Assembly (NCBI RefSeq): GCF_039555335.1 | Contig: NW_027305506.1 | Location: 1 to 64,000 of the forward strand | From: Amphiura filiformis | Lineage: Eukaryota > Echinodermata > Ophiuroidea > Amphilepidida > Amphiuridae | Reading direction: 5' to 3' | DNA length: 64,000 bases | Shown: piece by piece, positions 9,607-55,205 of the stretch | Layout of the letters: every line of letters begins with the position of its first letter | Position numbering within the stretch: the first letter of the stretch is position 1 | The notes under the pieces: generated by a model | The model's database searches: none | The model's input: only the letters and a program-made list of their open reading frames with translations | Told to the model about the DNA's origin: nothing | Translations under genes and position numbers: made by a program

Positions 9607-10510
9607 AGGTCATTTGGGGTCATCCGGGGTCACCCAGGGGTCATTTGAGGTCAAATTACTGAAAACTGTCGTATGGGCATGACATTTGGTGGGTACCATC
9701 AACATTTAGAGCCAAATTTTCGGAAGGTCATTTTGGGGTCATCCATGGTCACCCAGGGTCATCTGAGGTCAAATGACTAAAAACTGTTGTATGGGCATGA
9801 AACTTGGTGGGTACAGTCAACATGTAGAGCCAAAGTTTTGGAAGGTCATTTTGGGGTCATCCGGGGTCACCCAGGGTCATCTGAGGTCAAATTACTAAAA
9901 ACTGTCATATGGGAATGACACTTGGTGGTACAGTCAACATTTAGAGTCAAATTTTTGGAAGGTCATTTTGGGGTCACTTAGGGGTCATCTGAGGTAAAAT
10001 GACTAACAATTGTCGTATGGGCATGAAACTTGGTGGGTATAGCCAACATTTTGAGTCAAATTTTGGAAGGTCATTTTGGGGTCATCCAAGGTCACCCAGG
10101 GGTCATCTGAGGTCAAATGACTAAAATCTGTCATATGGGAATGAAACTTTGTGGGTACAGTCAAGAGTTGGAGCCATATTTTTGGAAGGTCATTTTGGGG
10201 TCATCCAAGGTCACCCAGGGGTCATCTGAGGTCAAATTACTAAAAACTGTTGTATGGGCATGAAATTTGGTTGGTACAGTCAACATTTAGAGCCAAAGTT
10301 TTTGAAGGTCATTTCAAGGTCACCCGTGGTCACCCAGGAGTCATCTGAGGTCAAATTGCTAAAACTGTCATATGGGCATGAAACTTGGTGGGTACAGTCA
10401 ACATTTAGAGCCAAATGTTTGGAAGGTTATTTTGGGGTCTTCCGAGGTCATCCAGGAGTCATCTGAGGTCAAATTACTAAAAACTATCATATGGGCATGA
10501 AACTTTGTGG
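9607..10510 (+). repeat. 118-bp minisatellite made of RGGTCA half-sites, ~8 copies
   Basis: The marker word TGTCGTATGGGCATGA recurs with variation near 9668, 9787, 9903, 10011, 10127, 10248, 10366 and 10486, giving a period close to 118 bp. Each unit contains a run such as AGGTCA-4 or 5 nt-GGGTCA-4-GGGTCA-4 or 5-GGGTCA-4-AGGTCA. A reverse-oriented relative of the same family forms the arrays at 17944-19160 and 22631-23770. Confidence 0.85.
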
Positions 10511-10516
10511 ATACAG

Positions 10517-10648: not shown

Positions 10649-10954
10649 ACAGTCAACATTTAGAGCCAAATGTTTGGAAAGTCATTTCAGGGTCACCATG
10701 GGTTGCAGGTTCATTTATTTCTACCAAAAGTAATCGCAAAAGTAGGCAGTTGCGAAAGCAGGCGAGACTTGTGGTTCGAGAACCGCCTTGTTTAGATTCA
10801 TGTCATGAAACAGTAAATTAAACAATTAGTGGGTTTTAGCGGGTTCGCCGTTGGACAAGTTTAGAACTGTCAAGCTTTCGTCAGGAGTAGCTCTGACTTC
10901 TTCAGGACAAAGTACCTAAGATTGAGACATGTAGACCGCCCCTTGTCTACTGAT

Positions 10955-10970
10955 GACTCTGAAAAGAGTC
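10955..10970 (-). other. Stem-loop, histone-type variant (unit 1)
   Basis: On the minus strand this reads GACTCTTTTCAGAGTC: a 6-bp stem and UUUC loop. It differs from the canonical histone 3' stem-loop by one compensated base pair. Confidence 0.6.
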
Positions 10971-11043
10971 GTTCACTGAAGACTGCCCCTTGTCAACAGA
11001 GAACAAGCAGATCTCGCCTATCTGCTAATATAAAGGTTTTGGT

Positions 11044-11059
11044 GGCTCTGAAAAGAGCC
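11044..11059 (-). other. Stem-loop identical to the histone mRNA 3' stem-loop (unit 2)
   Basis: On the minus strand this reads GGCTCTTTTCAGAGCC. The 5' flank is CAAAC and the 3' flank is ACCAAAAC. Stem, loop and flanks all fit the established metazoan replication-dependent histone 3' end. No histone coding sequence is present nearby. Confidence 0.7.
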
Positions 11060-11131
11060 GTTTGCTGAAGACTGCCCCTTGTCTACAGAAACAAGCAGAT
11101 CTCACCTATCTGCTGATTTTTAAGTTTTGGT

Positions 11132-11147
11132 GGCTCTGAAAAGAGCC
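11132..11147 (-). other. Stem-loop identical to the histone mRNA 3' stem-loop (unit 3)
   Basis: Same 16-nt sequence as the unit 88 bp away, again with CAAAC before and ACCAAAAC after it on the minus strand. Confidence 0.7.
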
Positions 11148-11219
11148 GTTTGCTGAAGACTGCCCCTTGTCAGCAGAACACGAGCAGACCTCGCCTATCT
11201 GCTAAATTAAAGGTTTGTT

Positions 11220-11236
11220 AGCTCTGAGAAAGAGCT
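11220..11236 (-). other. Degenerate stem-loop of the same array (unit 4)
   Basis: The minus strand reads AGCTCTTTCTCAGAGCT: the stem is kept but the loop is altered by one inserted base. It sits 88 bp from unit 3. Confidence 0.5.
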
Positions 11237-11385
11237 GTTCGATGAAGACGGCCCCTTGTCAACAGAGAACTAGTAGACTGCATATACTGTAAAGTATACG
11301 GCTTACCAGGAACCGTTTGGCCACTCATGGACTGATTGATTGATTGTATGCACGATGAGCGTTTATATCACTTAATTGCGGATGT

Positions 11386-11503
11386 GGTACAGATTAGCGG
11401 CTCTGTGATTGGTTGTTTGAAAATAGAGAGCGCCACATACGATGTGATAAAGATTTGCAGCTCTGTGATTGGTTGTTTGAAAATAGAGAACGCCACATAC
11501 GAC
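11386..11503 (-). repeat. ~60-bp tandem duplication at the end of the GIY-YIG frame
   Basis: A 60-bp unit (GATGTG..., then GCTCTGTGATTGGTTGTTTG, then GCCACATAC) is present twice in direct tandem. In the minus-strand frame it makes the protein end with two copies of MWRSLFSNNQSQS. It probably belongs to the 3' part of the element, not to the functional domain. Confidence 0.85.
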
Positions 11504-11990
11504 TGATGTCTTTGCCGTCATTTCTATTGATAGTAGAAGTTTCATTAACTCTGATTTCCAACGCTTCACGGGTCAACCTCATCCCCAAGTGAGAAACTTG
11601 TGCCAGTTTTGTTGTTTCGTCCCACAGAGGTTCATGACCTTCTTTGCAAGCATGTTCAGCTAATGCCGAGCCTTCTTCTTTCTTTTGTCTTGTGGCTCTT
11701 CGGTGTTCAGATATTCTGACCTTAAGTGGTCGTTTGGTTTGGCCTATGTATTGCTCACCACAACTGCAAGGTATAGAGTACACACATGGTGCACGATCCT
11801 TGGGCAGAGTATCTTTTGGGTGGCTTAGGATGTCTCTTAATTTGGCCAACCTAGAGTAGAATGTTTTGACCCCTGCACGGTTTAGAAACCGACAGATTTT
11901 GTCTGATACACCTTTGATATATGGCATGAAGGTAACGCCTTTGTTTCTTGATTGCTTTGTGTATGAGGTTTGAAAGTCAAATGAGTAAAT
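11394..11990 (-). pseudogene. Penelope-like retroelement, GIY-YIG endonuclease domain
   Basis: The frame starting at 11927 (open back to about 11990) encodes PYIKGVSDKICRFLNRAGV, then CVYSIPCSCGEQYIGQTKR (residues ~48-66), then LKVRISEHRRATR. This is the GIY-YIG nuclease signature with its conserved Arg, in the form found at the C-terminus of Penelope-like elements, where it nicks target DNA for reverse transcription. A downstream EHACKEGHEP segment and a region ending in NETSTINRNDG complete the domain. The reverse transcriptase that should precede it is missing: the frame closes at about 11990 and sequence beyond is unrelated. The copy is 5'-truncated and not autonomous. The last ~35 residues come from a tandem duplication. 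Confidence 0.8.
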
Positions 11991-12261
11991 TAAAAGTCAT
12001 TTCAAGAGGATCTAATGTTGAATGACTGTGGAAAAAGAAGGTTTTTTATTAGACAACAAAGCTCAAAGCTGATGGGTACCAATCATTTTGATACAGCCTC
12101 TAGTGTAGTTTGGGATTGATGCATCTCTGAATGTCTCTTTAATAATAATAATAAACAAAGAATAGAGTCAAGTAAAAAAGAGCTGTTGTAAATTTGCTGA
12201 CCCCTGTATGTAGTAGCATTTAGGGTTAATTTAACAACAAGTTAAAAAACAACTGCCTAAT

Positions 12262-13364
12262 ATGTACACGCCACCCCCGACATGTCTCAATGCTTGTCTT
12301 TGGAACGTCCAATCTGCTGCAAATAAGACTACGCAGATTGCTGATTATATTCAAGAACATGATATTGATGTATTTATAATGACTGAAACCTGGCTTCATG
12401 ATTATGATGCAGTCATTATTGGTGAACTCACCCCTCCCGGCTATACTTACCTCAACGTACCTCGCCCCTCCGGTACCCGTGGTGGTGGAATCGGCGTTGT
12501 TTTCAAAACACCCCTTAAACTGCGTCAGATTCCACAAGAAATTCACACTTCTTATTTTGAACATGTATACATCACCGACTTTACCAAGCGCCTTACATTG
12601 GTTGTAATATACAGACCTCCTCCTTCTTGTGACAATGGCTTTCGTACATCTGACTTTTTAACTGAATTTGACTCCTTTGTTGATGATATATCTGTGTCTC
12701 CCAGAAAATTACTGCTTGTTGGCGATTTCAACATACAGTGGGATGAACAAAACAAATGGGATGTTAAAAGTATGCCTCCATCATCTCCTCTGTTAACCTC
12801 CAACAGCATGTTGACAAACCAACCCACCGATCTGGACACATATTAGACCATGTTTTGTCATGTCCTGATGATGAATTAGTGAGTGATTTAGTGAGTGATT
12901 TCCATGTCCATGAGATGCTTGTGACTGTTCACCACTGTGTCCTTTTTAGAATCAATCTTCCGAAACCTTTGCCGCAAAGAATTACCCAGACTGTTCGCAA
13001 TTACAAGAGTATTGATGCCGAACAATTCTCTCACACATTGTCTAACAAACTGAAAACTGTTCCAGAAGTTAACAATGTTGACGATTTGTTCAACTGGTAC
13101 AATTCATGTACAGTTGACGTTGTGGACCAATTTGCCCCAGCTACTACTCGCAGCCGCGCTATAAGAAATCGCATGCCATGGTATAATGATAGTGTCCACG
13201 CTGCTCGCAGGGAAAGACGAAGAGCTGAAAGGAAGTGGCAAAAAACTCGCTCTGATGAAGATCGTGATCGGTTTTTGACCATAAACAGTTCAGTCAATGT
13301 GTGTATCTTAGAAGCAAAACAATCATATTTCACTGACAAACTTGCAGATGCTGACAATAATTAA
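12262..13364 (+). pseudogene. LINE endonuclease (EEP) domain and linker, frameshifted
   Basis: Residues CLWNVQSAANKT, then DIDVFIMTETWL (the Glu metal ligand), then GGGIGVVFK, then LLVGDFNIQWD (the GDFN motif) mark an apurinic-type LINE endonuclease. The first frame ends at 12846. The protein continues in a second frame from about 12790 (the HRSGHILDHVLSCPDDELVSD part) through an Arg-rich RRERRRAERKWQKTR helix to 13364. At least one frameshift therefore separates the nuclease from the linker. It is not functional as written. Confidence 0.75.
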
Positions 13365-15125
13365 GACCGTTTTCAGCACTGTGAATCATCTCCTTAACAA
13401 GCAGGTGTGTCATCTTCCTGCTCATGATGACCCCAAGGTGCTAAGCAATAAATTTTCCAAATTCTTTGTCACAAAGATTCGTAAGATTCGTGATGACTTG
13501 CATGCAGGTATTCGCGACCCGGCTAATGATGTTCCATGTGACAATTGTCCCCAATTCGCTCAATTTCATCCTTTAACGGAGGATGAAGTGTTGTACGTGA
13601 TCTCTTAGTCATCTAATGCCTCGTGTGTACTTGACCCTGAACCAACATGGCTGCTTAAGGACCATATTATAATACCATCTCCCTGCACTAACAGCTATTG
13701 TCAATGCATCCTTAACATCCGGTGTGTTTCCTAAAGCTGCCCACTCTGCTGTTGTTTCACCACTAATTAAGAAACGTTCTCTTGATAAAGACAATCTCCA
13801 AAATTACAGACCAGTCAGCAACCTATCACACTTAGCTAAAGTCATAGAGAAATGTGCTTCTGCTCAACTTGTTGAGCACTTTCATACCATGAACTCATTG
13901 ATCCCCTCCAATCAGCTTATAAAGCTATGCATAGCACGGAGAGTGCACTGATCATGTCACTAAAGACATTACTTCTGAGATTGCTTCTAAGAAGGTTGTT
14001 TTACTGGTTCTGTTAGACATGAGCGCGGTATTTGATACTGTCGATCACGAAATCTTGATAGACTGCCTCAATAAGCGTTTTGGAGTTTGTGGTGTGGCAT
14101 TACAGTGGTGCCGTTCCTATTTGCAAGGATGGACAAGTCAAGTCAATATAGGTGGCCATCTATCTGATCCTGTTGTTGTTGAATTTGGAGTTCCTCAAGG
14201 ATCGGTACTCGGTCCTTTGAAATTTACCATCTATACTACACCAGTTGGTGATATTGCATGCAAATATGGTATTCACTACCACTTGTACGCTGATGACACC
14301 CAGTTATATACGTCTTTCGATCCTCGTATCCCTGGTGAACTTGATTTAATTCTTGCCAATCTAACATCATGCATTGATGCAATTCGATCTTGGATGCATG
14401 GCCTCCAACTACCAAATTGAATGATTCCAAAACAGAATTCTTTGTTGCCGGCTCTGTCTACAGCCTCAAACTTCTCCCACCGCTTATTCTCAACATAGGT
14501 ACATCCATGATCATACCATCTCAAGTAATCCGCAATCTTGGCGTACTTTATAACCAGACAATGACATTCACTAATCACATAAACCACCTCCGCCAAACTA
14601 TCAATTTTCATATCAAGATCTGTGGCGCATCCGTAGTTTCATCGACTTACATGTCATCATGTTGCACGAGCCTTAATAACATCAAGGCTTGACTACTATA
14701 ATGCTCTCTTTACTCATCTATCTGCCACAGACATTTGTCGTCTTCAGCGTCTCCAAAATGCCGCCGCAAGAGCCATCTTTGCTGTCGGTCAGAGAGTTGA
14801 CGCTGCCTCACTGCTGGTCAAATTACACTGGCTCCCCATCTCCAACTGCATTACTTTCAAGCTTCTGCTATATGTTTACAAATCTATGCATAATCTCGCT
14901 CCAGTGTACTTATCTGACTGTTTCACTCAATATCTTCCTGGTTGACCTCTCAGATCATCGGGTGATACCACTCGCTTGGCAATTCCCAAAGCAAGTATCA
15001 CTGCCTTTGGTGAAAAGCGATTTCACATCATTGCTGCCCAAGCCTGGCATGAACTCACCATTGCAATCAGATCGGCTCCATCCATTGATTCTTTCAAGAG
15101 ACTGTTGAAATCATATTTATTCTGA
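13342..15125 (+). pseudogene. LINE reverse transcriptase, frameshifted
   Basis: Recognisable blocks in order are: CVLDPEPTWLL (near 13620), NYRPVSNLSHLAKVIEK (13800-13850), VFDTVDHEIL (14025-14055), GVPQGSVLGP (14190-14220) and YADDTQLYTSF, the catalytic box, at 14285-14320. A C-terminal thumb-like region is in another frame after 14390. An in-frame stop at 13606 and shifts near 13940, 14400 and 14690 make this a relic. Confidence 0.75.
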
Positions 15126-17943: not shown

Positions 17944-19160
17944 TAGGCAGATGACCCCTGGTGACCCCTAAATGCCCTTCCCAAAATTTGGGTCTAAATG
18001 GTGACTGTACCCACCAAGTTTCATACCCATCTGACAGTTTTTACAAATTTGACCTCAGATGACCCCTGGTGACCCCGAAATGACCTTCCATAAATCTGGG
18101 TCTAAATGTTGACTACCCATCAAGTTTCATGCCCATATGACAGTTTTTACCAATTTGACCCCTGGATGACCCGAAATGACCGTCCAAAAATTTGGCTCTA
18201 ACTGTTGACTACCCACCAAGTTACATGCCCATATGACAGTTTTAGTCATTTGACCTCAGACGACCCATGGGTGACCTCGGATGACCCCAAAATGACCTTC
18301 CAAAAATTAGACTCTGAATGTTGACTACCCACCAAGTTTCATGCTCATCCAACAGTTTTTACTAATTTGACCTCAGATGACCCCTGGTGACCCCGAAAAT
18401 TACCTTCCAAAATTTGGGTCAAAATGTTGACTGTACCCACCAAGTTTCATGTCCATACGACAGTTTTTACTAATTTGACCCCTGGATGACCCCGAAATGA
18501 CCTTCCAAAAATTTGACTCTGAATGTTGACTGTATCCACCAAGTTTCATGCTCATCTGACAGTTTTTATAAATTTGACCTCATGACCCCTGGGTGACCAC
18601 GGATGACCTCAAAATGATCTTCCAAAATTGTGACTATGAATGTTGACTACCCACCAAGTTTCATGCCCATACGACAGTTTTAGTAATTTGACCCCAGATG
18701 ACCCCTGGGTGACCCCAAAATGACCTTCCAAAAATTTGGCTCTAAATGTTGACTGTACCTACCAAGTTTCATGCCCATACGACAGTTTTTAGTAATTTGA
18801 CCCCAGATGACCCTGGGTGACCCCAAAATGACCTTCCAAAAATTTGGCTCTAAATGTTGACTGTACCTACCAAGTTTCATGCCCATACGACAATTTTTAG
18901 TAATTTGACCTCATATGATCTCTGGGTGACCTCAGATGACCCCAAAATGATCTTCCAAAATTTGACTCTAAATGCTAACTGTATCCACCAAGTTCCATGC
19001 ACTTACGACAGTTTTTAGTCATTTGACCTCAGATGATCTGGGTGACCCCGAATGACCCCAAAATGACCTTCCAAAAATTTGCCTCAAATGATGACTGTAC
19101 CAACCAAGTTTCATGCTCATATGACAGTTTTTTCTTTTTTGACCTCAGATGACCCCTGGA
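17944..19160 (-). repeat. 118-bp-type minisatellite, reverse orientation, first array
   Basis: Units of about 115-120 bp with the landmarks CCACCAAGTTTCATGCCCAT, GACAGTTTTTA..AATTTGACC and a run of TGACCY words (for example TGACCT-4-TGACCC-4-TGACCC-5-TGACCT near 18050). This is the inverse of the family at 9607-10510. From about 19190 it passes into a distinct tail ending with CACAGACTACCAGTATTATT near 19490. Confidence 0.85.
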
Positions 19161-19489
19161 TGACCTCACATGACATTGACCCACTACCCAATACAAATTT
19201 GTTCTGTCTAGGGTCAAGATGCACCCACCCACCAAGTTTGAGGAACGTGCGACCCAAGTCTCCGAGAAAATAAGAGAGACTGGGCATGGCAACCTATGGG
19301 GAGTAAGAGAGAAGACTCCGGGATGGGGTCCCCAGGTAGTAATCCACTAACAAATGCAAACTTGGTCTGGCTCGGATCAAGTCGCACCTATACCCACCAC
19401 GTTTGAGGGCCCTGCTACCTGTCAGTTCTGAGAAAATAGGCGTACAGACACGACTCACAGACAGAATCACATAGTCACAGACTACCAGT

Positions 19490-22080
19490 ATTATTATATA
19501 GATTCTTCTCTGTAAATGTAAACGAGTGAATAAGCCACTCTTTCAAGGGGTAATATAGACACAACTCTTTTTAGAGTAAAGTTAATCTGAAAAGAATGAA
19601 CTTGCATTTGGTAATGGATGTGCCACATGTGAGTTTGGTTGCTGATCCATGCTCGTCCTCACAGGTTTTCCTCCGGTGCTCCGGTTTTCCTCCTGCATCA
19701 GAAATCAGACCTCTTCCCATATCCCTGTCCCATAAAGTCTGGTTGGCATCCCTTGAATTTAGTAGTCTCTGAGCACTATTGGGCTTTGCCTGGCTTCAGC
19801 TGAATGTTATAAATAACATAAATAATTATATATTCCACTCTTTTGAGAGTGAACAATATAGCTGTCACAATCCTTCTAAAATTAAATTTACCACTCAAAA
19901 AAAAGAGTTGTTCTTCTTTCCACTCTTAACACTTTTTGTGTTCATAAAGAGAATAAGCATGTCAAATTAAAAGGCAACAAAACAGCATTAAGTTGTAATT
20001 GCCTGCTGTATTACTAGTAACCATACAAATTAAGCAATAATGATAACATCCAGGGGCATTCACATTGGCATTTTACTTCTACGAATTAGGTTTATTGTGA
20101 CCATAAATTTGATAGCAAAGCCATTGAAGAACTATATCAATAAACAGGTTTGCCTTCTATGCTAAGTATTACTTGAACCCATGTCCTATATTTAGCCATA
20201 TAACATGGACTGCGAATGGGAGGGGTTATTGTAAGCCCCCTATATTTCTATTGTAAATGTAATATACTGTACTGTAATATGTGGTACTAATGTACTCTAT
20301 CCAGTGACACCAAAATAAGTATAAACATTCCCGGCATATTGTGGCTATGACATCATAATATGAGCATGCTCTCACACAATTCTGGCTTTGTACAACTAAA
20401 GTATATAGGCAAATTGATTGTCGGAGAATATTCCTATGAACATGTGCTTTTCACCAGATTTTCTCATAAAATGACAGGAAATGACAATTTCAACCTAACT
20501 ACCAAATAAAAAGTTGATATCTTTCGCAATAATATTACAAGAGCAAAGTAAAAATCATGGATTTTACTCTAGAAACCTATGGTTGAGGTCATCAACCCCT
20601 GCTCTATGGTCATTTTTGATGGTCGGTCTTACCGGGTAAATAAGGTGCTGGGGTAATAATTTTATGACTAAAACAAGCTCAAAGGATGGATCTATAATTA
20701 GCGTATGTCGTTTTGGCATAAACACACCTGACTTTTTATGTTGGATGAAAAACCCTGGGTGCCTCTCCGTAGGACTAGGGTTAAGAACTGACATTCAAAA
20801 CTATTTCATGAGAGATGGGAATTCCCTCTCAGGTATATCAAGTTGATTAATTTGCAATGACAAAGTCAGTCAGAACTATTATTATCTTGTTAATTCCCAG
20901 ATAAAACAATGTGATGATTGCATTGCATCATATGAAAAACCCTGTTGCTAAATATGTAAAAGAAAATGTTATCATGATATTTGAGCATTCACATTGACAA
21001 TTTACCCTGCAGTTTCTAAGAATTAGGTTTACTATCATAATGCTGGGGCTTGGCATGTGCCCCCGCTAGCGTAGTTAACGGGAGCAATCACTAAAACGGG
21101 AGGATCTCTGAACAATGGCGTGCAATTAGTGCCAATCGTACATTGGAACACCCAATTGCTATTAATCGTTCCATTCACCCCCACACACACATACACACCC
21201 CTCACGCAAGTTCAAAGTGATTGAGACCAAGGAAAATATAATAGTCTAATTAAATAGACCTTTTAATTTCCATGATGTCACGATTAATCAAAATTGTGTT
21301 CACAAGACAGCCTGTAGTATATTGGGTCTAGATGTACATAAAGAGAGCACACTAAATCAATGCGCTATTTGTGCAACCTTAATGAGTTCCGGTAAAATAC
21401 AAAAACTTTTTGAGGTATTTTGGGCTGCTCTTTGGACTAATACTAGTAATCAGCTTGAATATGGGGACGGGGTCACCGGGCCTGATTGGGGGGGGGGGGT
21501 TTGGTAGGGGGCAAAAGTCATTTTTCGACAATTTTTTTCCAATGGAATTTTCTAAATTTTTTAATCGATTGGTGGCCACATGCCCTCATGCCCCTCTGAT
21601 GCTACACCACTGGCATGACGAACGTAAAGTGTATCTCACGATTGTCACATATGCAGGTTGCGGCATGTCACACAAAAGATCAAAGATCTTTTGCGTTTGC
21701 TTTGCGTATGCATGCAGATCACTCCGAATGCCATCTTTTCACACAAGCTGTCTCTTGGATCTGATGACGTTGCAGGAAAAAGGTCTATTACTGCATTCAG
21801 CTTTATTACTGCATAATAACAGCAGGATTTTTGATAAAAAATACCCATATTCACAATTTGTGAAGCCAATGCTTTTAACCAATTCAGGGACTGCTATGTG
21901 GTAGCCAAAACAAGATATTCCTGAAAAAATTGGTGTCAGTTCCAATTTACAATGTAATTATTATTTGAATGGAATGTTAAAGATGGAATTGCATGAGAAG
22001 TTTTGCACTGCAGGACTGACAGGAACATTTAGTGGTAGTTCATTTATCATTAAATAATTATACACTTACATACGTGTTTT
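19490..22080. other. Non-coding spacer of the duplicated unit
   Basis: Holds a GAGCACTATTGGGCTTTGCC LINE-tail word (19760) and two related blocks around ATTCACATTG..ATTAGGTTTA (20048-20092 and 20986-21032). There is also a CACACA-rich patch (21178-21205) and a poly-G run (about 21489). Small open frames occur identically in both copies but have no domain character. They are preserved only because the duplication is young. Confidence 0.5.
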
Positions 22081-22109
22081 GGCGCAGCGTCAGCCTTCTA
22101 TTCTAGATA

Positions 22110-22630
22110 AAAACATTTTTTTAAATAAAAAATATGCAAATGAGGTAGCTAATTTGCATATTTTGCGACAAAAATCACATGGGATCTTAAGACTGCCCCC
22201 TTACCACCATCCAACTAAGTTAAATCTCTATACGCCTCACCAGTTCCAAAAAATGGCAAAAAGCCTTTATAAAAATAAACAAATATGCAAATGAGGTGGC
22301 TAATTTGAATATTTTGCAATAAAAATCACGTGGGATCTTAAGACTGCCCTTTACCACCACCCTACCAAGTTACATCTATATACCCCTACCAGTTCCGAAA
22401 AATGGCAAAAAGCGTTTTTAAAAATAGAAAAAAAGGAAATGAGGTGGCTGATTTGCATCTTAAGACTACTCTTACCATCACCCCATCAAATTACATTTCT
22501 ATATGCCTCACCAGTTCCGAAAAATGGCCAAAAGCATTTCGACAAATAAAAAAAATAGGCAAATGTGGTGACTAATTTGCATATCTTGCGACAAAAATTG
22601 CATCGGATCTTACGACTGCCGCTTACCACA
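22110..22630 (+). repeat. Octamer-bearing tandem repeat, first array
   Basis: About four units of 125-155 bp, each starting with a TATGCAAATGAGGT..CTAATTTGCAT core followed by 'gcgacaaaaatc', 'ggatcttaagactgcc', 'caagttacat' and 'cctcaccagttcc' words. The array is cut at 22630 by the duplication junction. The same array is complete at 26713-27620. Confidence 0.8.
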
Positions 22631-23770
22631 ACCCATCTGACAGTTTTTACAAATTTGACCTCAGATGACCCCTGGTGACCCCGAAATGACCTTCCATAAA
22701 TCTGGGTCTAAATGTTGACTGTACCCATCAAGTTTCATGCCCATATGACAGTTTTTACCAATTTGACCCCTGGATGACCCGAAATGACCGTCCAAAAAAT
22801 TGGCTCTTACTGTTGACTACCCACCAAGTTACATGCCCATATGACAGTTTTTAGTCATTTGACCTCAGACGACCCATGGGTGACCTCGGATGACCCCAAA
22901 ATGACCTTCCAAAAATTAGACTCTGAATGTTGACTACCCACCAAGTTTCATGCTCATCCAACATTTTTTACTATTTTGACCTGAGATGACCCCTGGTGAC
23001 CCCGAAAATTACCTTCCAAAAATTTGGGTCAAAATGTTGACTGTACCCACCAAGTTTCATGTCCATACGACAGTTTTTACTAATTTGACCCCTGGATGAC
23101 CCCGAAATGACCTTCCAAAATTTGACTCTGAATGTTGACTGTATCCACCAAGTTTCATGCTCATCTGACAGTTTTTATAAATTTGACCTCATGACCCCTG
23201 GGTGACCACGGATGACCTCAAAATGATCTTCCAAAATTGTGACTATGAATGTTGACTACCCACCAAGTTTCATGCCCATACGACAGTTTTTAGTAATTTG
23301 ACCCCAGATGACCCCTGGGTGACCCCAAAATGACCTTCCAAAAATTTGGCTCTAAATGTTGACTGTACCTACCAAGTTTCATGCCCATACGACAGTTTTA
23401 GTAATTTGACCCCAGATGACCCCTGGTGACCCCAAAATGACCTTCCAAAAATTTGGCTCTAAATGTTGACTGTACCTACCAAGTTTCATGCCCATACGAC
23501 AATTTTTAGTAATTTGACCTCATATGATCTCTGGGTGACCTCAGATGACCCCAAAATGATCTTCCAAAATTTGACTCTAAATGCTAACTGTATCCACCAA
23601 GTTCCATGCACTTACGACAGTTTTTAGTCATTTGACCTCAGATGATCTGGGTGACCCCGAATGACCCCAAAATGACCTTCCAAAAATTTGCCTCAAATGA
23701 TGACTGTACCAACCAAGTTTCATGCTCATATGACAGTTTTTGCTAATTTGACCTCAGATGACCCCTGGAT
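22631..23770 (-). repeat. 118-bp-type minisatellite, second array
   Basis: Duplicate of the array at 18025-19160 with few differences, for example 'tttttgctaatttgacc' at 23738 against 'ttttttcttttttgacc' at 19129. Confidence 0.85.
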
Positions 23771-26700
23771 GACCTCACATGACATTGACCCACTACCCAA
23801 TACAAATTTGTTCTGTCTAGGGTCAAGATGCACCCACCCACCAAGTTTGAGGAACGTGCGACCCAAGTCTCCGAGAAAATAAGAGAGACTGGGCATGGCA
23901 ACCTATGGGGAGTAAGAGAGAAGACTCCGGGATGGGGTCCCCCGGGTAGTAATCCACTAACAAATGCAAACTTGGTCTGGCTCGGATCAAGTCGCACCTA
24001 TACCCACCACGTTTGAGGGCCCTGCTACCTGTCAGTTCTGAGAAAATAGGCGTACAGACACGACTCACAGACAGAATCACATAGTCACAGACTACCAGTA
24101 TTATTATATAGATTCTTCTCTGTAAATGTAAACGAGTGAATAAGCCACTCTTTCAAGGGGTAATATAGACACAACTCTTTTTAGAGTAAAGTTAATCTGA
24201 AAAGAATGAACTTGCATTTGGTAATGGATGTGCCACATGTGAGTTTGGTTGCTGATCCATGCTCGTCCTCACAGGTTTTCCTCCGGTGCTCCGGTTTTCC
24301 TCCTGCATCAGAAATCAGACCTCTTCCCATATCCCTGTCCCATAAAGTCTGGTTGGCATCCCTTGAATTTAGTAGTCTCTGAGCACTATTGGGCTTTGCC
24401 TGGCTTCAGCTGAATGTTATAAATAACATAAATAATTATATATTCCACTCTTTTGAGAGTGAACAATATAGCTGTCACAATCCTTCTAAAATTAAATTTA
24501 CCACTCAAAAAAAGAGTTGTTCTTCTTTCCACTCTTAACACTTTTTGTGTTCATAAAGAGAATAAGCATGTCAAATTAAAAGGCAACAAAACAGCATTAA
24601 GTTGTAATTGCCTGCTGTATTACTAGTAACCATACAAATTAAGCAATAATGATAACATCCAGGGGCATTCACATTGGCATTTTACTTCTACGAATTAGGT
24701 TTATTGTGACCATAAATTTGATAGCAAAGCCATTGAAGAACTATATCAATAAACAGGTTTGCCTTCTATGCTAAGTATTACTTGAACCCATGTCCTATAT
24801 TTAGCCATATAACATGGACTGCGAATGGGAGGGGTTATTGTAAGCCCCCTATATTTCTATTGTAAATGTAATATACTGTACTGTAATATGTGGTACTAAT
24901 GTACTCTATCCAGTGACACCAAAATAAGTATAAACATTCCCGGCATATTGTGGCTATGACATCATAATATGAGCATGCTCTCACACAATTCTGGCTTTGT
25001 ACAACTAAAGTATATAGGCAAATTGATTGTCGGAGAATATTCCTATGAACATGTGCTTTTCACCAGATTTTCTCATAAAATGACAGGAAATGACAATTTC
25101 AACCTAACTACCAAATAAAAAGTTGATATCTTTCGCAATAATATTACAAGAGCAAAGTAAAAATCATGGATTTTACTCTAGAAACCTATGGTTGAGGTCA
25201 TCAACCCCTGCTCTATGGTCATTTTTGATGGTCGGTCTTACCGGGTAAATAAGGTGCTGGGGTAATAATTTTATGACTAAAACAAGCTCAAAGGATGGAT
25301 CTATAATTAGCGTATGTCGTTTTGGCATAAACACACCTGACTTTTTATGTTGGATGAAAAACCCTGGGTGCCTCTCCGTAGGACTAGGGTTAAGAACTGA
25401 CATTCAAAACTATTTCATGAGAGATGGGAATTCCCTCTCAGGTATATCAAGTTGATTAATTTGCAATGACAAAGTCAGTCAGAACTATTATTATCTTGTT
25501 AATTCCCAGATAAAACAATGTGATGATTGCATTGCATCATATGAAAAACCCTGTTGCTAAATATGTAAAAGAAAATGTTATCATGATATTTGAGCATTCA
25601 CATTGACAATTTACCCTGCAGTTTCTAAGAATTAGGTTTACTATCATAATGCTGGGGCTTGGCATGTGCCCCCGCTAGCGTAGTTAACGGGAGCAATCAC
25701 TAAAACGGGAAGGATCTCTGAACAATGGCGTGCAATTAGTGCCAATCGTACATTGGAACACCCAATTGCTATTAATCGTTCCATTCACCCCCCACACACA
25801 CATACACACCCCCTCACGCAAGTTCAAAGTGATTGAGACCAAGGAAAATATAATAGTCTAATTAAATAGACCTTTTAATTTCCATGATGTCACGATTAAT
25901 CAAAATTGTGTTCACAAGACAGCCTGTAGTATATTGGGTCTAGATGTACATAAAGAGAGCACACTAAATCAATGCGCTATTTGTGCAACCTTAATGAGTT
26001 CAGTAAAATACAAAAACTTTTTGAGGTATTTTGGGCTGCTCTTTGGACTAATACTAGTAATCAGCTTGAATATGGGGACGGGGTCACCGGGCCTGATTGG
26101 GGGGTTTGGTAGGGGCACAAGTCATTTTTCGACAATTTTTTCCAATGGAATTTTCTAAATTTTTAATCGATTGGTGGCCACATGCCCTCATGCCCCTCTG
26201 ATGCTACACCACTGGCATGACGAACGTAAAGTGTATCTCACGATTGTCACATATGCAGGTTGCGGCATGTCACACAAAAAGATCAAAGATCTTTTGCGTT
26301 TGCTTTGCGTATGCATGCAGATCACTCCGAATGCCATCTTTTCACACAAGCTGTCTCTTGGATCTGATGACGTTGCAGGAAAAAGGTCTATTACTGCATT
26401 CAGCTTTATTACTGCATAATAACAGCAGGATTTTGATAAAAAATACCCATATTCACAATTTGTGAAGCCAATGCTTTTAACCAATTAAGGGAATGCTATG
26501 TGGTAGCCAAAACAAGATATTCCTGAAAAAAATTGGTGTCAGTTCCAATTTACAATGTAATTATTATTTGAATGGAATGTTAAAGATGGAATTGCATGAG
26601 AAGTTTTGCACTGCAGGACTGACAGGAACATTTAGTGGTAGTTCATTTATCATTAAATAATTATACACTTACATACGTGTTTTGGCGCAGCGTCAGCCTT

Positions 26701-27233
26701 CTATTCTAGATAAAAACATTTTTAAAAATAAAAAATATGCAAATGAGGTAGCTAATTTGCATATTTTGCGACAAAAATCACATGGGATCTTAAGACTGCC
26801 CCCTTACCACCATCCAACTAAGTTAAATCTCTATACGCCTCACCAGTTCCAAAAAATGGCAAAAAGCCTTTATAAAAATAAACAAATATGCAAATGAGGT
26901 GGCTAATTTGAATATTTTGCGATAAAAATCACGTGGGATCTTAAGACTGCCCCTTTACCACCACCCTACCAAGTTACATCTATATACCCCCTACCAGTTC
27001 CGAAAAATGGCAAAAAGCGTTTTTAAAAATAGAAAAAAAGGAAATGAGGTGGCTGATTTGCATCTTAAGACTACTCTTACCATCACCCCATCAAATTACA
27101 TTTCTATATGCCTCACCAGTTCCGAAAAATGGCCAAAAGCATTTCGACAAATAAAAAAAATAGGCAAATGTGGTGACTAATTTGCATATCTTGCGACAAA
27201 AATTGCATCGGATCTTACGACTGCCGCTTACCA
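22631..27233 (+). repeat. 4.6-kb tandem duplication, copy 2
   Basis: Second copy, directly adjacent. At the junction, CACAACC of the octamer repeat meets CCATCTGACAG of the minisatellite. Sequence beyond copy 2 at 27233 continues as CACAACCTCATC, so copy 2 has the native right edge and copy 1 the native left edge. Short shared ACC/CATC words at the breakpoints fit microhomology-mediated or unequal exchange. Confidence 0.9.
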
Positions 27234-27620
27234 CAACCTCATCAAGTTACATCCCTATACGCCTCATCAGTTCTTCGAAATGGCAAAAAAAACCACCCAA
27301 AAACAATTTTTAAGTTAAATATGCAAATTAGCTACCTAATTTGCGCCAAAAATTGCATCAAGTCTTAGGGCAGCCACTTACCACCACCCTACCAAGTTAC
27401 ACCCCAATAAACCTCACCAGCTCCGAGAAACTGCCGCTTACCACAACCTCATCAAGTTACATCCCTAGACGCCTCACCGGTTCTTCGAAATGGCAAAAAA
27501 AAAAAATTAAGTTAAATATGCAAATTAGCTACCTAATTTGCATATTTTGCGCCAAAAATTGCATCAAGTCTTAGAACAGCCACTTACCACCACCCTACCA
27601 AGTTACACCCCAATACACCT
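26713..27620 (+). repeat. Octamer-bearing tandem repeat, second and longer array
   Basis: Continues beyond the duplicated part. There are further units at 27320-27420 and 27500-27600 in which the core reads AATATGCAAATTAGCTACCTAA followed by TTTGCATA in the best unit. Unit length is 125-190 bp. Confidence 0.8.
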
Positions 27621-31007: not shown

Positions 31008-31485
31008 GTAAGTATATGTAAAATAAAAACTTATTAATATATTACTTTCCCCTAGTGCATAAAAGTTTACTACTACAAGACACTATACTAGCTTTATTCT
31101 GTGTCCATTTAGCATGCCCATGTATAGAGCTAAAGTTAATTTAAAGTATTTGCCATGAGAAAATAGTTTGTATATAGGATATGATCTTGGATCATGTCGT
31201 GTCTTGTCCAGACGACAATATAGTCACCACTGTGAAATTGTTGAAAATACCATGTTTGGTCACTACACATGTATGATATGTGATGCGATCAAGCAAAATC
31301 TTGTTTGTGACACTTTTGTTGAAGCCAATAATCATGCTGTTTTTGAAAACCAAAAATTGTAAAGATCTTAAGAGGTAGTCCTATAGGAGATATATTAAAG
31401 CGATGGAATCATTTAGTGTCAGATTTAAAAGTAAATCGAGAGCATTAATGTGGAAACCCTTTGTTTATGTAACTTTACTTTTCAG

Positions 31486-31985
31486 TGAAAGTGCCGGCTA
31501 CGGACCCTGATTCGTATTATCGCGTTTATAAAGCACTACACCTTGTTGCACACGAGGCGATACCATGTGTAGACAGATGTCTCTCAACTTGGCACGCAAA
31601 CCAGGCATTACCATCCTGCACAGGACAGTGTCCAATTGGAAAGAAACCTAAACCACCAGTATCATGTCAGAATTGCTTGGCTTGGTGTCAAGCTGTAGAA
31701 GGTGCTTTATATAACCAACCACCCAAAGTGAGATTACAAGTAACATGGTCTAATGTCAACTCCTCTGGGCTGGGGAAGACATATTTGGAAGTCGCCAAGG
31801 CGTTTGTACTACGATTACCACATAAGCAAATCAGTGCTGGAGCAAGCAGTACATGCAATCAGTATAACAGCATGTCAGATTTCGACTCAGCATCTCTCTT
31901 GATGATAATGGCAAAGTTTGCTGGGTTTCATAATGGGACAAAGGCCAGTTACGATACCATCATGAAGGTTGGTTACTTTTCTTGA
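31486..31985 (+). CDS. Exon 3 of the CARD-like gene: Cys/Trp-rich domain resembling CXorf38
   Basis: A pyrimidine-rich acceptor TTTACTTTTCAG ends at 31485. Phase 1 entry matches exon 2 and leaves ~160 open codons. Landmarks in order are: YRVYKALHLVAHEAI; CVDRCLSTWH; CTGQCPIGKKPKPP; CQNCLAWCQAVEGAL (C-x2-C-x-W); VTWSNVNSSGLGKTYLEVAKAF; and DFDSASLLMIMAKFAGFHN. The C-x2-C-x-W, W-x-N and EVAKAF order resembles the CXorf38 (DUF4559) family and more distantly DZIP3/HEPN-type proteins. This is from memory, not a search. A possible donor AAG|GTTGGT at 31968 would end the exon at 31967; otherwise the frame stops at 31983-31985. No later exon was found. Confidence 0.6.
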
Positions 31986-46508: not shown

Positions 46509-46850
46509 AAATAGGCTGATCACTCCACGTTTCATTGCAAATCCGATGTATTATATCTGCCTATCAAAAATTCCATTATTGGAATGACCTTGTATACAAT
46601 ATTAAAGTCTATGGATATGGTTAGTGATTAATATCACTTATAATTTATTTCTTTAGGTGCATTACATAGTGACGGATGTTCGACTCCGCCAGAAAAAAAG
46701 TTTTTGAGTTAGACGCGATCAAAGAGTATGCCAATTTGTGACCAACCATAGCAGAACACTAACAAGTAAAATCCTTCAAAAGTTGCTATATTGTGAAAAA
46801 CTAGCATCTAAAGTATCTTGAAACATCTATCACATGAAGAATTATTCGCT

Positions 46851-47571
46851 ATTACCCCAAGACAGAGAAACCAAATAAAACACATCCAAAGTGTTATATT
46901 CCTTGCCACACTACTCAGCCATTGAACACGGTCGAGATTTATTTTGTATATTCATCAAAAAACATGCATACACAATTCACAATTTAATTAATATGAATAG
47001 CAAAGGCTAAAGGCTTCAATTCAGCAAAAACAATCATTAAATTATTTGACATTTATGCAAAAGCAAAAAAGGCTGGATGCGAGATACTCCACGATATCGG
47101 AAAGCGAGATACTTAAAGCAAAAGCTGAAAAGCTGGATGTGAAATACCCCTTATATCTGAAAGCGAGATACTTTAAGCAAAAGCTGAAAAGCTGGATGTG
47201 AAATACCCCCTATATCTGAAAGCGAGATACTTTAAGCAAAAGCTGAAAAGCTGGCTGTGAATTACTCCAAGATATCGAAAAGCAAGGTGCTTTAAGCAAA
47301 AGCTGAAAAGCTGGATGTGAGTTACACCATATAGCTGAAAGAGAGAGACTTTGGAAGCAAATGAGAAAATTATAGCTGAAGCCTTTAGCATATTTTAATT
47401 CTCATATTTAATATTTTATTGCTGTTGGTTGGAGCCCGCGAGAGATTCCCGAGCTTCCTTGCGGAAAAGTTCCTTAAGAAAATTTCAAATCAAAAGAATT
47501 ATTACATTTTTCTTTGACATTGTACATATAAAGCCATTATTTTATATAATTAATATCAAATTGCACTCCCA
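46851..47571 (-). repeat. Ngaro B2 split direct repeat
   Basis: Begins ATTACCCCAAGACAGAG and ends AATTGCACTCCCA; it matches B1 closely. Inside it, a ~58-bp unit (GAAAGCGAGATACTTTAAGC.., then AAAAGCTGGATGTGAAATAC) is tandemly repeated about five times. Confidence 0.85.
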
Positions 47572-47690: not shown

Positions 47691-47974
47691 GTAAATAAAA
47701 ATATTTACGACCGTCTCCAATGATGGCTGATTGTGTTGTGATTAGGCTATGGCTCCCAACGCAACCGGATAAACAACCAAGCCTGCCCTGATTGGCCAAA
47801 CCCCGACAAGAACACAATGGATGTTTTATGCAAATGAAACATGTGATGACCCGCGGTCATTTAACATGTCCTTTCACGAACGCCCCTGGATGCAGGCATG
47901 ATATGGAAGCACCCATTTCTCTGCAGGGGCAAATTTTGATTCTTCATGATTGATCACATTCAGAATCTTTATTA
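47691..47974 (-). repeat. Ngaro A2 split direct repeat
   Basis: Runs from GTAAATAAAAATATTTACGA to CACATTCAGAATCTTTATTA and matches A1 at 56714-56998 with at most a few differences. It abuts B1 directly, sharing the ATTA core. Confidence 0.85.
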
Positions 47975-48694
47975 CCCCAAGACAGAGAAACCAAATAAAA
48001 CACATCCAAAGTGTTATATTCCTTGCCACACTACTCAGCCATTGAACACGGTCGAGATTTATTTTGTATATTCATCAAAAAACATGCATACACAATTCAC
48101 AATTTAATTAATATGAATAGCAAAGGCTAAAGGCTTCAATTCAGCAAAAACAATCATTAAATTATTTGACATTTATGCAAAAGCAAAAAAGGCTGGATGC
48201 GAGATACTCCACGATATCGGAAAGCGAGATACTTAAAGCAAAAGCTGAAAAGCTGGATGTGAAATACCCCTTATATCTGAAAGCGAGATACTTTAAGCAA
48301 AAGCTGAAAAGCTGGATGTGAAATACCCCCTATATCTGAAAGCGAGATACTTTAAGCAAAAGCTGAAAAGCTGGCTGTGAATTATTCCAAGATATCGAAA
48401 AGCAAGGTGCTTTTTAAAGCAAAAGCTGAAAAGCTGGATGTGAGTTACACCATATAGCTGAAAGAGAGATACTTTGGAAGCAAATGAGAAAATTATAGCT
48501 GAAGCCTTTAGCATATTTTAATTCTCATATTTAATATTTTATTGCTGTTGGTTGGAGCCCGCGAGAGATTCCCGAGCTTCCTTGCGGAAAAGTTCCTTAA
48601 GAAAATTTCAAATCAAAAGAAATATTACATTTTTCTTTGACATTGTACATATAAAGCCATTATTTTATATAATTAATATCAAATTGCACTCCCA
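47971..48694 (-). repeat. Ngaro B1 split direct repeat
   Basis: Second copy of the B repeat, with the same internal ~58-bp tandem units. Differences from B2 are few, mostly single bases and one AAA insertion near 48414. Confidence 0.85.
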
Positions 48695-49739: not shown

Positions 49740-50258
49740 ACAATGACTGTGGTCTAATGTACGCATGAAAAGCACCCGACTTCCATCTACCCATTTCCTT
49801 AATTTGTTCATCCGAAGCCCCGCCTAATGATGCTAGTAGCCGCTCCAATTCTGAAACTATGCGCACTGAAATGACTAGGAGATATTCCCAAAAGTTTAAT
49901 GCCTTTTTTCATGATACAAGTAAATTGATATGAAGTTAGCGGATCGCCTGCAAAATGTATAAACAGAGGCCCTTGCGTAACAGGTCTTACCCTTAGGTAA
50001 TCTTCAATGGCTTTTACCAGGCATAACCGACTATTAGAAGAGCTCTCGATTTTCAATTTTGATGATAGCCCTTTTTGGTCCGTCTTCGAGTATCTGATTG
50101 TCATATCTATAATTTTTTGATTCTCCTGAGAAATAGATACATCCTCTACAGCTAAAATTCTTGATAAATCACCTGACTTTTTCACACATGTAAACTCTCC
50201 AATTCTTAAAAATCCAAAAAATGCCAAAAGAAATGCCGCCTTCATGCCAAAATATCCA
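49740..50258 (-). pseudogene. Ngaro tyrosine recombinase, catalytic C-terminal part
   Basis: The frame from 50263 contains FFGFLRIGEF (first catalytic Arg) and SAHSFRIGAATS (His-x-x-Arg). A one-base shift near 49830 then leads into GASDEQIKEMGRWKSGAF and HAYIRPQSLL, which supplies the catalytic Tyr (about 49765). All key residues of a lambda-integrase-type recombinase are therefore still encoded, in two frames. The N-terminal part lies beyond the 50261-52745 insert. The enzyme would integrate the circular cDNA of the element. Confidence 0.75.
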
Positions 50259-50260
50259 TA

Positions 50261-52745
50261 CACTAAAAGTGGCTCAAAGATTTTGCCAATGATTTATTGT
50301 ATTAATTGTCATAATGACAAATCAAGTAGAGCAGCTAGCATGAGTTGACAATTATACCTGAACCATGGGGCAAGGGTCAGCACTATCTGTCATAGCTTGT
50401 CACCATCACTCTTAGTCAATAAAACCCACCACTATCATAGTACTAGCATGAGTGGCAAGAGAGAAGTTTCACTTGGGTTTTATTTTTGCTCCTTTTGCTT
50501 TTAACTTTGTAAACATAAAATTAAAATCCAAATAAAATAGATAAAATAGTTTTTTAATAGGCAGATAGACAATGGAAAGATGCTGGAATTTGAAAACAGT
50601 GAGAATTTTATAATCAATTTATACTGCTCAGTCCAAACTGTGAAAATTTAACCCCAATAAAATATTCCTCTATACAGAAGCTATAAGTATGCCACAGAAA
50701 TATGAAACCTTCAAGCAAGTTGTCCTGAACTGACCTGCAACAAATATGTCCTTGTTTGTTAGCAAAACATTAGGTTCAAGGGATAAACTTTCATTTTTCA
50801 TGTTTACAGGCTAAGAGCTAGGCAGTTTTAATGACATTTTTGCCTACCAAATTGTGTGTATATCAATCATAAGGCCCTTCCCAATTAATCGTTAGTTTAC
50901 TGTTTAAGATTTTTAAAAAGGCATGAAGTAACTTTTGATTATTAATTGTTAATTACTTATTATTTTCTTTATTTTGAAATGAGCCGTCACATTTTGGCAC
51001 TGTTATTTTGCAATTATGGTTGATTTCAGGCCTGTACGCAGGAATTTTTTTTTTTTTGGGGGTGCTGATTTAGACTTTTCCCAAACATTTTGGACCTTTT
51101 TGGAATAAAAAGGCGTAAAAAATCTAATTTTTTTGCTAGCTACGCTCGGAAATTGTGATATTTTGGGACTTTTTGTATACTTTTTAGATTTGGGGTGCAG
51201 TCGCCCCCCCCCCCGCACAGGCCTGGTTGATTCTATACATTGATAAATGCAGGGGTGATATTTGTTTGTTCAAGATGATCAAAGTAAGAGAGTATCAAAT
51301 TAATGTAATTAAATGTCATTTAACTGAGAAAATGTCAAATAAAAATCAAATAATTACATATTTTCAATTTTCAATTCTCAATTTTGGAGGCCGGAGCGAA
51401 ACAGTAAACTCAAAATCAATTATGAAGGGCCTAATCATGTAAAAGAGCTCAGAATAGCAACTACACTAGCTACACTCATATTTAATACACGAATGAATGA
51501 ATTCATTTTTGTTTTACAGGCATAAATGTCATGGGGAAAATTTCCCAGTATGTGTAGATCGAAAATAACCATGTTTACAAATAAATATACTCATCAGCCT
51601 ACATGTATCACTAGGATCCAGAACATGCTCATCTATCAGGGCATGGTTCTTTAACCTCAATACATCTGTACATTCATTAAATGACCTCTGAAAATTTGGG
51701 TACAAAAACTCATACCCTGCAACTCGTGGCCAAAATTTGCACTCTGATTATTTAATTGAGGTTATTGAACTATGCAATTGGAATGAGGCCATTGTGGTCC
51801 ATAGTGTATACCCAATACAAGACAAATATTCTGAGGTCAGCTGCCAGAGCTGAACTGCACTTCCACCTGTTCAGTTGCTATGGTTATTAACATATGACCC
51901 CTTTATTCCTAGGTGGGTCATTACAGTTTCTACACTTCCCACCATCCTTTGTATCATGGTACCCAATTTTGAATAGTGACCTATGCATCGGCGCATCATC
52001 TTGATCTTCTGAACAAGTACAGAAAACTAAAATGGAAACAAGGCCTTGTGGGAAGTGTAAAATAATATCAATACTTGTACTTCAATCTCCAGATTTGGGA
52101 CCATTTGAACAGTGTAAAGAAAAATAATAGCAACAGAAACATACTTTATTTGTGTGTTAACTAATTATCAATATCTCTGAGACTTGTACAGGTACGGTAA
52201 GAAAAAAAATTATCCTTACAGTACATTTTTTTTTTCAAAATTGCAAACATTTTAAATTTGTAGTAGGGCCTATTAGAAATACTATATTTCACACGGAACT
52301 GTGTCCCCATCTAATACTTCCTTAACCGTAGCTCTTGTCCATCTCTTTTCAGAATCTACTGCTTCACAAGCATCTCCTATAGCAAATGTCTGTGATTCCA
52401 TGTTGTTTTATTCCAGGGTTTTATTAAATTCCAGTTGGTATATACAATGTACGTGTATTCAACTTGAAAACGTTTAAACAAGTGAACAACTCACAGGACA
52501 CTGACATGTGGTTTTAAATTTAAACTTGAACCAGGATTGACCTGCACATATGTATGGGGTAGTGAGTAAAGGCTGGAGCAATGCCAAGGGTAGATTCTTG
52601 AGTTCAAATTTATTAACCTATGCTTGTAACCATGATGATTGTAATCAACTGGGGAATTCTGGTGGTGAAATATGGTGACAGTGATGACAGTTCTGCAAGT
52701 CACATGACCGGAAAAATTTTCCGGGTTGTCGAGCCACATTTAGTG
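50261..52745. mobile_element. 2.5-kb insert with CACTA-type ends inside the recombinase gene
   Basis: Left end CACTAAAAGTGGCTC and right end GAGCCACATTTAGTG are inverted with one mismatch over 15 bp, and TA flanks both sides (50259-50260, 52746-52747). Removing the insert with one TA brings both recombinase halves into the same frame, so the borders are exact. CACTA ends suggest the EnSpm/CACTA superfamily, usually with 2-3 bp duplications. No transposase is recognised inside. The interior holds A/T-rich non-coding DNA and a repeat shared with 653-745. Confidence 0.75.
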
Positions 52746-53178: not shown

Positions 53179-53793
53179 ACAAATTGCGGCACCGACCTGC
53201 CTTCTGCTTCAGCCTCTGGCACCAGATTCCGAAAACGCTTTACCTGGAATCGTGAAAGTGCATCAGCAATGTCATTTTGTTTACCAGGTATGTATTTAGC
53301 TGAAAATGCAATATTTAACTTTAGACATTGCAAAACAAAGAAACGCACTAAATTCATTATTTTGGACATCTCGATGTTTGCTTGTTGACGATAGCTACAA
53401 CTGACTGATTGTCTGACCTAAGTAAAATTCTCTTTCCTGTCCACTGATCTCCCCATAAAACTAATGCTACTACTATGGGAAAAATTCAAACCATGCAATA
53501 GAATGACTCTTAACTTGATTTGGCCATTTACCTTGAAACCATTGGCCCTTTAAAAAACCTCCAAACCCAATACTTGCGCTCGCGTCCGTGAACAGCTGTA
53601 AGTCCTCGTCACTTGACCACATTTGATCTGGGATTATGGTAGTTCCATTGAAATGTTCAAGAAATAAAACCCACATTTTCAAATCTTTCTGAGCCCCCTC
53701 GGATAGTGCAATTTTTTGGCTCGACTTTTTTCCCCACATGTAAGATCTATCAGTCGGCGCAAAAATGCTCTTCCTGGGGCTACTGCTTTGCAA
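53166..53793 (-). pseudogene. Ngaro RNase H domain, frameshifted
   Basis: Frames 53793-53473 and 53369-53166 carry LQLFTDASASIGFGG (the first catalytic Asp) and, after an interrupted stretch, FSAKYIPGKQNDIADALSRF, the C-terminal RNase H block with its Asp. The middle block (Glu/Asp) falls in the broken stretch at 53370-53470. Confidence 0.7.
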
Positions 53794-55205
53794 ACAAACG
53801 AAAGTGACCCGATTACTGATTGCAGCTCTTTCAGGGAAACCTTTGTATTTTTGGCTATTTTACGAATTTTTTCCAAAATGATGGCTAGTTTGTCTTGTGG
53901 AACTGAAATGATTTGTTTGATCGAATCGATTTCCAAGCCTAAATATGTAATTTTCGTACTTGGTCCCATAGATTTTTCTGGTGCTAATGGGACTCCCAAA
54001 TTTTCGCACACATCTTCGAAACATTTCACAAGGCGATTGCATGACATAAAACATTCGTTTTCGTGGGGCCCAGTAAAATAGAAATCGTCCATATAATGAG
54101 ATACCCTGTCAGTCCCCGCTTTTTGTTTTACTACCCATTCAATGAAGGTTGAAAACCTTTCAAATAGAGCTGGTGAACATGAAGCCCCCATTGGCAAAGC
54201 CTTATCCACGTAATATTTACCCAAAACTTTCATGCCAAGTAGTTGAAAATCTGCTGGGTGTATTGGCAGTAGCCTAAAGGCTGATTTAATGTCTGCTTTT
54301 GCCATGAGTGCCCCTTTTCCTACCCCCACAACTAATTGAACTGCCTCATCAAAGCTCGCATATTTCACCTTACAAAATTCTGGTTCAATGCCGTCATTAA
54401 TTGACCCCCCTTCCGGGAATGAGAGGTGCTGAATAAGCCTGAAACTACCTGGTTCTGATTTTGGCACCAATCCAATAGGCGAGACTATAAGATTAGTAAT
54501 GGGTTTTTGAATGAATGGGCCTGCGATTCGCTTAGCGCTTATTTCTTTATTCAATTTCTCCACTGCTCTATCTGGGAATTGTCTAACAGATGGCAAGTTC
54601 TGTGCCTCCCTTCCTACCCGATCACCTAAATAATGTAACTTAAAACCTACAGAAAAGCCTTCTTTAAGGATTTGTGCAGATGCTGAGTCAGGATACTTGT
54701 CTAACAATGGAATAAGATTCCCAATTTTTATCGGAGATGGATATTTACAGCAAATGCAAATAGACTCTGCACACTTTGTAGGCCTATTGCTACCATTATT
54801 GTTCAATATCCTATTTGCCTCCTTTTCTACAACTAAATGCCCCATGACCTCGCTCCCCGCATTGCATACATCTGTGTGGGTAGACACAACCTGGTCGCAT
54901 GCATCCCCTCTCATTGAATTTGAAGCACACAGCGTGACCTGCTGCTTTACTACTGAACCCTCGTTGTGCTGCGCCTTGAAATTGTTGCCGAAACCCGCCT
55001 TGGGCTGAATTTGGGATTGCATAACTTCGACCTTGAAACTGTTGGCGAAACCCGCCTTGAATTGCTCCCCTTGCTCGAAATCGATTATTGAACCCTGCTG
55101 GACTAGCATATGAGCTATTGTAAGAGCCAGTGTAAGAACCAGCGTAGGAACTTGGATACGGGTAACCAGTAGGTGCGGTGATATACATTGCCCATAATTC
55201 CCCAT
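53679..55205 (-). pseudogene. Ngaro reverse transcriptase
   Basis: A 508-codon frame. The RT proper starts near residue 215 (EISAKRIAGPFIQKPITNLI, then IGLVPKSEPGSFRLIQHLSF). Catalytic blocks are MAKADIKSAFRLLPIHP (first Asp at 305), MGASCSPALFERFSTF and SHYMDDFYFTG (YMDD at 371-374), followed by GLEIDSIKQ and a thumb region. The type is that of DIRS-order elements, which use YMDD or a variant. The N-terminal ~120 residues overlap the gag-like frame and are not obviously RT. The domain is complete, with a shift into RNase H near 53680. Confidence 0.8.

Follow-up and report, generated by a model that had tools for sequence, protein, structure and literature searches.

Tandem histone-type 3′ stem-loops between a GIY-YIG-like frame and a hammerhead-like core in a putative Penelope-like element fragment

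The histone mRNA 3′ stem-loop normally acts with SLBP, and cleavage also involves a downstream element to which U7 snRNA base-pairs (PMC1924863). The same paper describes a different putative downstream element in C. elegans. When the downstream element was missing, histone RNA was still cut in vitro by the nuclease MBLAC1, although less specifically (PMC6303110). Messages delivered to cells with a histone stem-loop at their end are reported to be translated with SLBP (PMC5368982).

The RNA life cycle of Penelope-like elements is poorly known. According to a review, the Penelope-like sequences available carry hammerhead motifs, usually without helix III (PMC6155905). A lizard Penelope-like element also has a hammerhead, and in vitro it cleaves only with the element protein (PMC11167929). 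The lizard hammerhead was dispensable for insertion in vitro, no RNA ends were detected at the cut, and the RNA segment that is required belongs to the beginning of the ORF (PMC11167929).

Here we describe a minus-strand locus in a 64-kb window, which is the whole stretch of DNA that was analyzed; a single decayed copy is the basis of the entire analysis. In a layout resembling that of Penelope-like elements, the locus has a candidate GIY-YIG-like core followed by a non-coding region with a candidate hammerhead-like core, whose helix III has no loop, all on one strand. It also holds histone-type stem-loops, and none was found for Penelope-like elements in the literature searched, as far as its accessible text goes. 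The first-pass annotation of this DNA had known of no described precedent for a retroelement with histone-style 3′ ends. We likewise found none in a search that covered mainly titles and abstracts, with few subscription papers among them; nine papers printing the stem-loop sequence included none on transposons, judged by title and the start of the abstract. If the stem-loops work as they do in histone messages, a non-histone protein-coding RNA of an animal would be using the histone 3′-end code, which would suggest how Penelope-like RNA gets exported, translated, and timed.

The array and its histone-type stem-loops

Downward from 11996 on the minus strand, the open frame is followed by 128 nt, the array, hairpin A′, and the hammerhead-like motif (Table 1). 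The first stem-loop lies 157 nt past the stop codon. The array was initially placed at 10860 to 11236, with a recurrence every 88 to 89 bp. The recurrence is borne out in four units, the last of them short, and the extent is corrected to 11265-10951 plus an extra hairpin copy at 10950-10931. All four units contain a six-pair histone-type hairpin. The most constant block of the array is hairpin A (GAC-AAGGGGCA-GTC or close to that), with the loop AAGGGGC. Hairpin C (GCAGAT-AGGCGAG-ATCTGC or close to that) is present in units 1 to 3 only, as unit 4 ends after its own stem-loop, and its copies differ from each other at 1 to 2 of 19 letters. The array region folds better than shuffled sequence (z = -2.42), with 1 of 100 shuffles folding equally well.

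Table 1. Positions of the array, its hairpins, and the neighboring features
Feature	Positions	Strand	Details
Open frame, GIY-YIG-like core	11394..11996	-	200 aa stop to stop; from ORF and Pfam
Array of four 88-89 bp units, fourth short	10951..11265	-	Hairpin A and histone-type stem-loop per unit
Unit 1 stem-loop	11220..11236	-	A-U at base pair 1; 5-nt loop; without Rfam match
Unit 2 exact histone 3′ stem-loop	11132..11147	-	RF00032, 37.5 bits; within exact 23-mer 11150-11128
Unit 3 exact histone 3′ stem-loop	11044..11059	-	RF00032, 34.9 bits; within exact 23-mer 11062-11040
Unit 4 stem-loop	10955..10970	-	A-U at base pair 2; Rfam 16.8 bits, under cut-off
Hairpin C, unit 1	11184..11202	-	Other copies at 11113-11095 and 11025-11007
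Hairpin A′, additional hairpin A copy directly after unit 4	10931..10950	-	Six full pairs
Minimal hammerhead-like motif	10861..10919	-	Core spans 10905-10867; cleavage predicted between 10872 and 10871

Units 2 and 3 hold the exact stem-loop GGCTCTTTTCAGAGCC, each time within an exact copy of the 23-mer AACGGCTCTTTTCAGAGCCACCA. This confirms the earlier report of an exact 16-nt stem-loop in two units, with CAAAC before the stem and ACCA after it; the outer units have CGAAC and TGAAC. The flanks of the exact stem-loops are reminiscent of those of sea-urchin histone genes. Rfam Histone3 (RF00032), with a gathering cut-off of 34 bits, gave two gathering-level matches, the only ones in the window, and these are the two exact units (E = 2.3e-7 and 2.3e-6). 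Unit 1 was absent from the Rfam matches even at E<=5, and unit 4 scored well below the curated cut-off. Stem, loop, and adjacent flanks are the same as in the histone mRNA 3′ stem-loop in two of the four units. However, the stem-loops here are tandem and non-terminal, and two of them have altered stems.

Sites matching the 16-mer with up to 3 mismatches number three in the window, every one inside the array, whereas 100 shuffled windows had a mean of 0.29 such sites, and 1 of the 100 reached three. The exact 23-mer had no match in prokaryote or viral contig collections, and the 18-mer and the unit pattern had none in viral contigs; these collections are non-animal and have little bearing on animals. 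We rejected a chance origin of the stem-loop on the basis of the shuffles, the Histone3 E-values, the double occurrence of the exact 23-mer, and its absence from the prokaryote contigs. Because the likeness exceeds chance, it reflects either descent or selection for the same binding. We also rejected a nearby histone gene. A tblastn search of the window with the four core histones returned a single 11-aa match at E = 0.86, which is a chance match, and this agrees with the annotators' remark that no histone gene is near.

None of the 24 stem pairs across the four units is broken. There are only two stem changes, in different units and at different pairs, and both are compensated: G-C became A-U at base pair 1 in unit 1, and the same change occurred at base pair 2 in unit 4. 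The first-pass annotation had seen a compensated pair in one variant unit and an altered loop in another. Compensated pairs are in fact found in both outer units, and the altered loop is that of unit 1; stem pairing is kept in all four units. In a random model with 4 substitutions on 48 stem bases, all pairs were Watson-Crick in 0.04% of trials, and every pair was standard in 1.9% of trials when G-U was allowed. Once the stem partners were slid against each other, no more than 44% of the cells were still paired, compared with 100% in register. In a covariation shuffle control, 62 of 500 shuffles equaled the observed value, and this control is weak because there are only three distinct rows. 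Palindrome-templated mutation could be an alternative source of the paired changes.

Folding of the units had been proposed along with the original description, and in all four the stem-loop forms with a pairing probability of 0.91 to 1.00. Letter comparisons differed at 12 of 96 in the stem-loop and at 12 of 144 in hairpin A, against 7 of 30 and 5 of 24 in the more variable flanks of the stem-loop. Whether the stem-loop is better conserved than its surroundings, a point raised at the outset, has a divided answer: letter by letter it is not better conserved than hairpin A, but all of its stem changes are compensated.

None of the four stem-loops has any of the downstream element (HDE)-like motifs searched for within 45 nt, although the host's own element may differ. 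A sea-urchin HDE motif was absent from 10860-11400 at up to 2 mismatches. The closest candidate, AAGGGG, begins 11 nt past the stem-loop of unit 4, inside the loop of hairpin A′. The missing purine-rich element is not decisive, because MBLAC1 cleaves in vitro without it and C. elegans has a different putative element.

The surrounding putative element

The array lies just 3′ of the endonuclease frame and on the same strand, as first described, and the core of that frame is GIY-YIG-like at a score marginally under the Pfam cut-off. In an excised 100-aa core, Pfam GIY-YIG matched over profile positions 3 to 40 of 78 (E = 3.6e-4). The score of 21.2 bits is 1.4 bits below the curated cut-off of 22.6, and the match spans half the profile. 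The whole 200-aa frame gave no Pfam match. AlphaFold of the frame alone reached a pLDDT of 34.6, which is too low for use, and the one match to a solved structure (E = 0.84) was dismissed as chance. Relatives of the frame were absent from viral and prokaryote contigs, which have little bearing on animals. A 60-bp duplication, 91 to 92% identical, is found at the C-terminal end of the frame (11381-11502).

The hammerhead-like core consists of CTGAAGA, stem II (GTCAG/CTGAC), GAAAGCTT with a loopless stem III, and stem I (TTGTC/GACAG), and it has one extra A ahead of stem II. A scan of both strands found the core pattern once in the 64 kb; among 100 first-order Markov windows, 2 contain one. No Rfam hammerhead matched at E<=5, and the fold energy of the region is ordinary (z = -0.36). 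Because of the extra A, the missing Rfam match, and the ordinary fold energy, the motif is perhaps a decayed ribozyme. Its position directly downstream of the array strengthens the first-pass interpretation, as Penelope-like elements are reported to have such motifs (PMC6155905, PMC11167929). An AATAAA is located downstream of the array at 10719 on the minus strand, and poly(A) ends are therefore possible.

Upstream, the minus-strand frames appear broken by eye, and a plus-strand LINE starts just there (endonuclease 12238-12846 and RVT_1 13938-14420 by Pfam). Unlike Penelope-like elements, in which a telomerase-like reverse transcriptase precedes the endonuclease in one ORF, the locus yielded no recognizable reverse transcriptase among upstream minus-strand ORFs of at least 120 aa. 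It yielded no second pLTR either, as blastn at E<=1e-3 found the array and the hammerhead region only once each in the window. We therefore regard the copy as a fragment. Solo copies of a Penelope-like element that are truncated at the 5′ end would be without a second pLTR. Judged from the sequence, the order of the parts is consistent with the 3′ region of a Penelope-like element.

Possible roles of the hairpins

We tentatively suggest that the locus is a decayed, 5′-incomplete 3′ part of a Penelope-like element that took in and multiplied a host histone stem-loop, and that the hairpins recruit SLBP as a substitute for poly(A). In this scenario, the fragment would comprise the endonuclease end and the non-coding 3′/pLTR region. 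The hammerhead would cut the element RNA and leave a 3′ end that lacks poly(A). SLBP would be bound by the histone hairpins, with 83 nt between the end of the last one and the predicted cut of the ribozyme. SLBP would then take on export, stability, and translation, and would tie the element RNA to S phase; with several hairpins, it would be more likely that one is bound. The Histone3 matches, the exact 23-mer present twice, the compensated changes, the pairing probability, the hammerhead-like and GIY-YIG-like cores, the distance of 157 nt from the stop codon to the first stem-loop, and the reported translation with SLBP of messages ending in a histone stem-loop (PMC5368982) all favor SLBP recruitment.

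However, SLBP recruitment is weakened by the four hairpins being tandem and non-terminal, by the 5-nt loop of unit 1, and by the loss of the G of base pair 2 in unit 4. Base pair 2 of the histone stem-loop is important for SLBP. SLBP recruitment is weakened further by the decayed state of the single copy, by a letterwise conservation of the stem-loop that is not above that of hairpin A, by the weak covariation control, by the extra A, missing Rfam match, and ordinary fold energy of the hammerhead-like motif, by the behavior of the lizard hammerhead, and by the AATAAA downstream. The first-pass annotation had proposed a retroelement with histone-style 3′ ends that could be bound by SLBP and made as non-polyadenylated S-phase RNA. 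That proposal is supported in part: placement, pairing, the absence of a histone gene from the tblastn results, and the lack of precedent in the literature searched agree with it, whereas the absence of a recognizable purine-rich HDE, the tandem non-terminal hairpins, the changed base pair 2 of unit 4, and the letterwise conservation weaken it. The wider claim of a retroelement family, in which a hammerhead makes a poly(A)-free 3′ end and a histone stem-loop array recruits SLBP, so that RNA and insertion are tied to S phase, is doubtful.

Passive capture has a likelihood about equal to that of SLBP recruitment, and we hold it just as tentatively. Here, the 3′ end of a histone gene or mRNA would have been copied into the non-coding region of the element and amplified as a minisatellite, with SLBP uninvolved. 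Many minisatellites in the window and the decayed state of the copy are in line with capture, and the missing downstream element would fit the end of a captured mature histone mRNA. In rotifer Penelope elements such as Pen1_Av, host DNA is taken up into the interval from the ORF to the 3′ pLTR (PMC3846280), and the present locus likewise has host-like sequence there. However, the rotifer spacers are 0.9 to 1.5 kb long, copy-specific, and share no sequence among copies (PMC3846280), whereas the sequence here is a short tandem motif. The compensation of both stem changes also argues against capture, as does the fixed-looking place of the array between the endonuclease frame and the hammerhead-like core.

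It is rather unlikely that the array consists of structured hairpins that act as a spacer or to which a protein of the element itself binds, with a likeness to histone messages that arose by convergence without SLBP. The full unit does contain three hairpins, of which hairpin A is the most constant, and the array region folds better than its shuffles. However, convergence would have to account for an exact 23-nt match, flanks included, that occurs twice with an Rfam E-value as low as 2.3e-7, and the RNA required by the lizard element is in the start of its ORF (PMC11167929).

Canonical processing, in which SLBP and the U7 snRNP would cut the element RNA 4 to 5 nt past a stem-loop, is disfavored and very unlikely because no recognizable purine-rich HDE is found at any of the four hairpins: two units do have the exact stem-loop with ACCA, AAGGGG is at a roughly correct distance from the unit 4 stem-loop, and MBLAC1 (PMC6303110) and C. 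elegans (PMC1924863) lessen the weight of the missing element, but AAGGGG follows the most altered stem-loop and four tandem sites are odd for a single end.

Other repeats and elements in the window

A minisatellite with a unit of about 108 to 118 bp, rich in GGTCA/TGACC, is common to 9607-10516, 17950-19170, and 22640-23780 and occurs in both orientations. The segments 18025-22637 and 22631-27243 form a 4.6-kb tandem duplication that is 99.0% identical and is either recent or an assembly artifact. Two 284-bp direct repeats (47691-47974 and 56714-56997), 99.6% identical and about 9 kb apart, enclose an RVT_1 frame (53682-55205, minus strand) and a Phage_integrase match (49811-50293, minus strand). 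This arrangement looks like a tyrosine-recombinase retroelement. A 725-bp direct repeat (46850-47571 and 47970-48694) is 99.2% identical and contains a 59-bp minisatellite. The region 59519-59898 is a near-palindrome of about 380 bp, with 89% identity to its own reverse complement. A plus-strand frame at 31476-31985 has a weak DUF4559 match, under the cut-off (E = 0.0012), and is perhaps an exon of a host gene.
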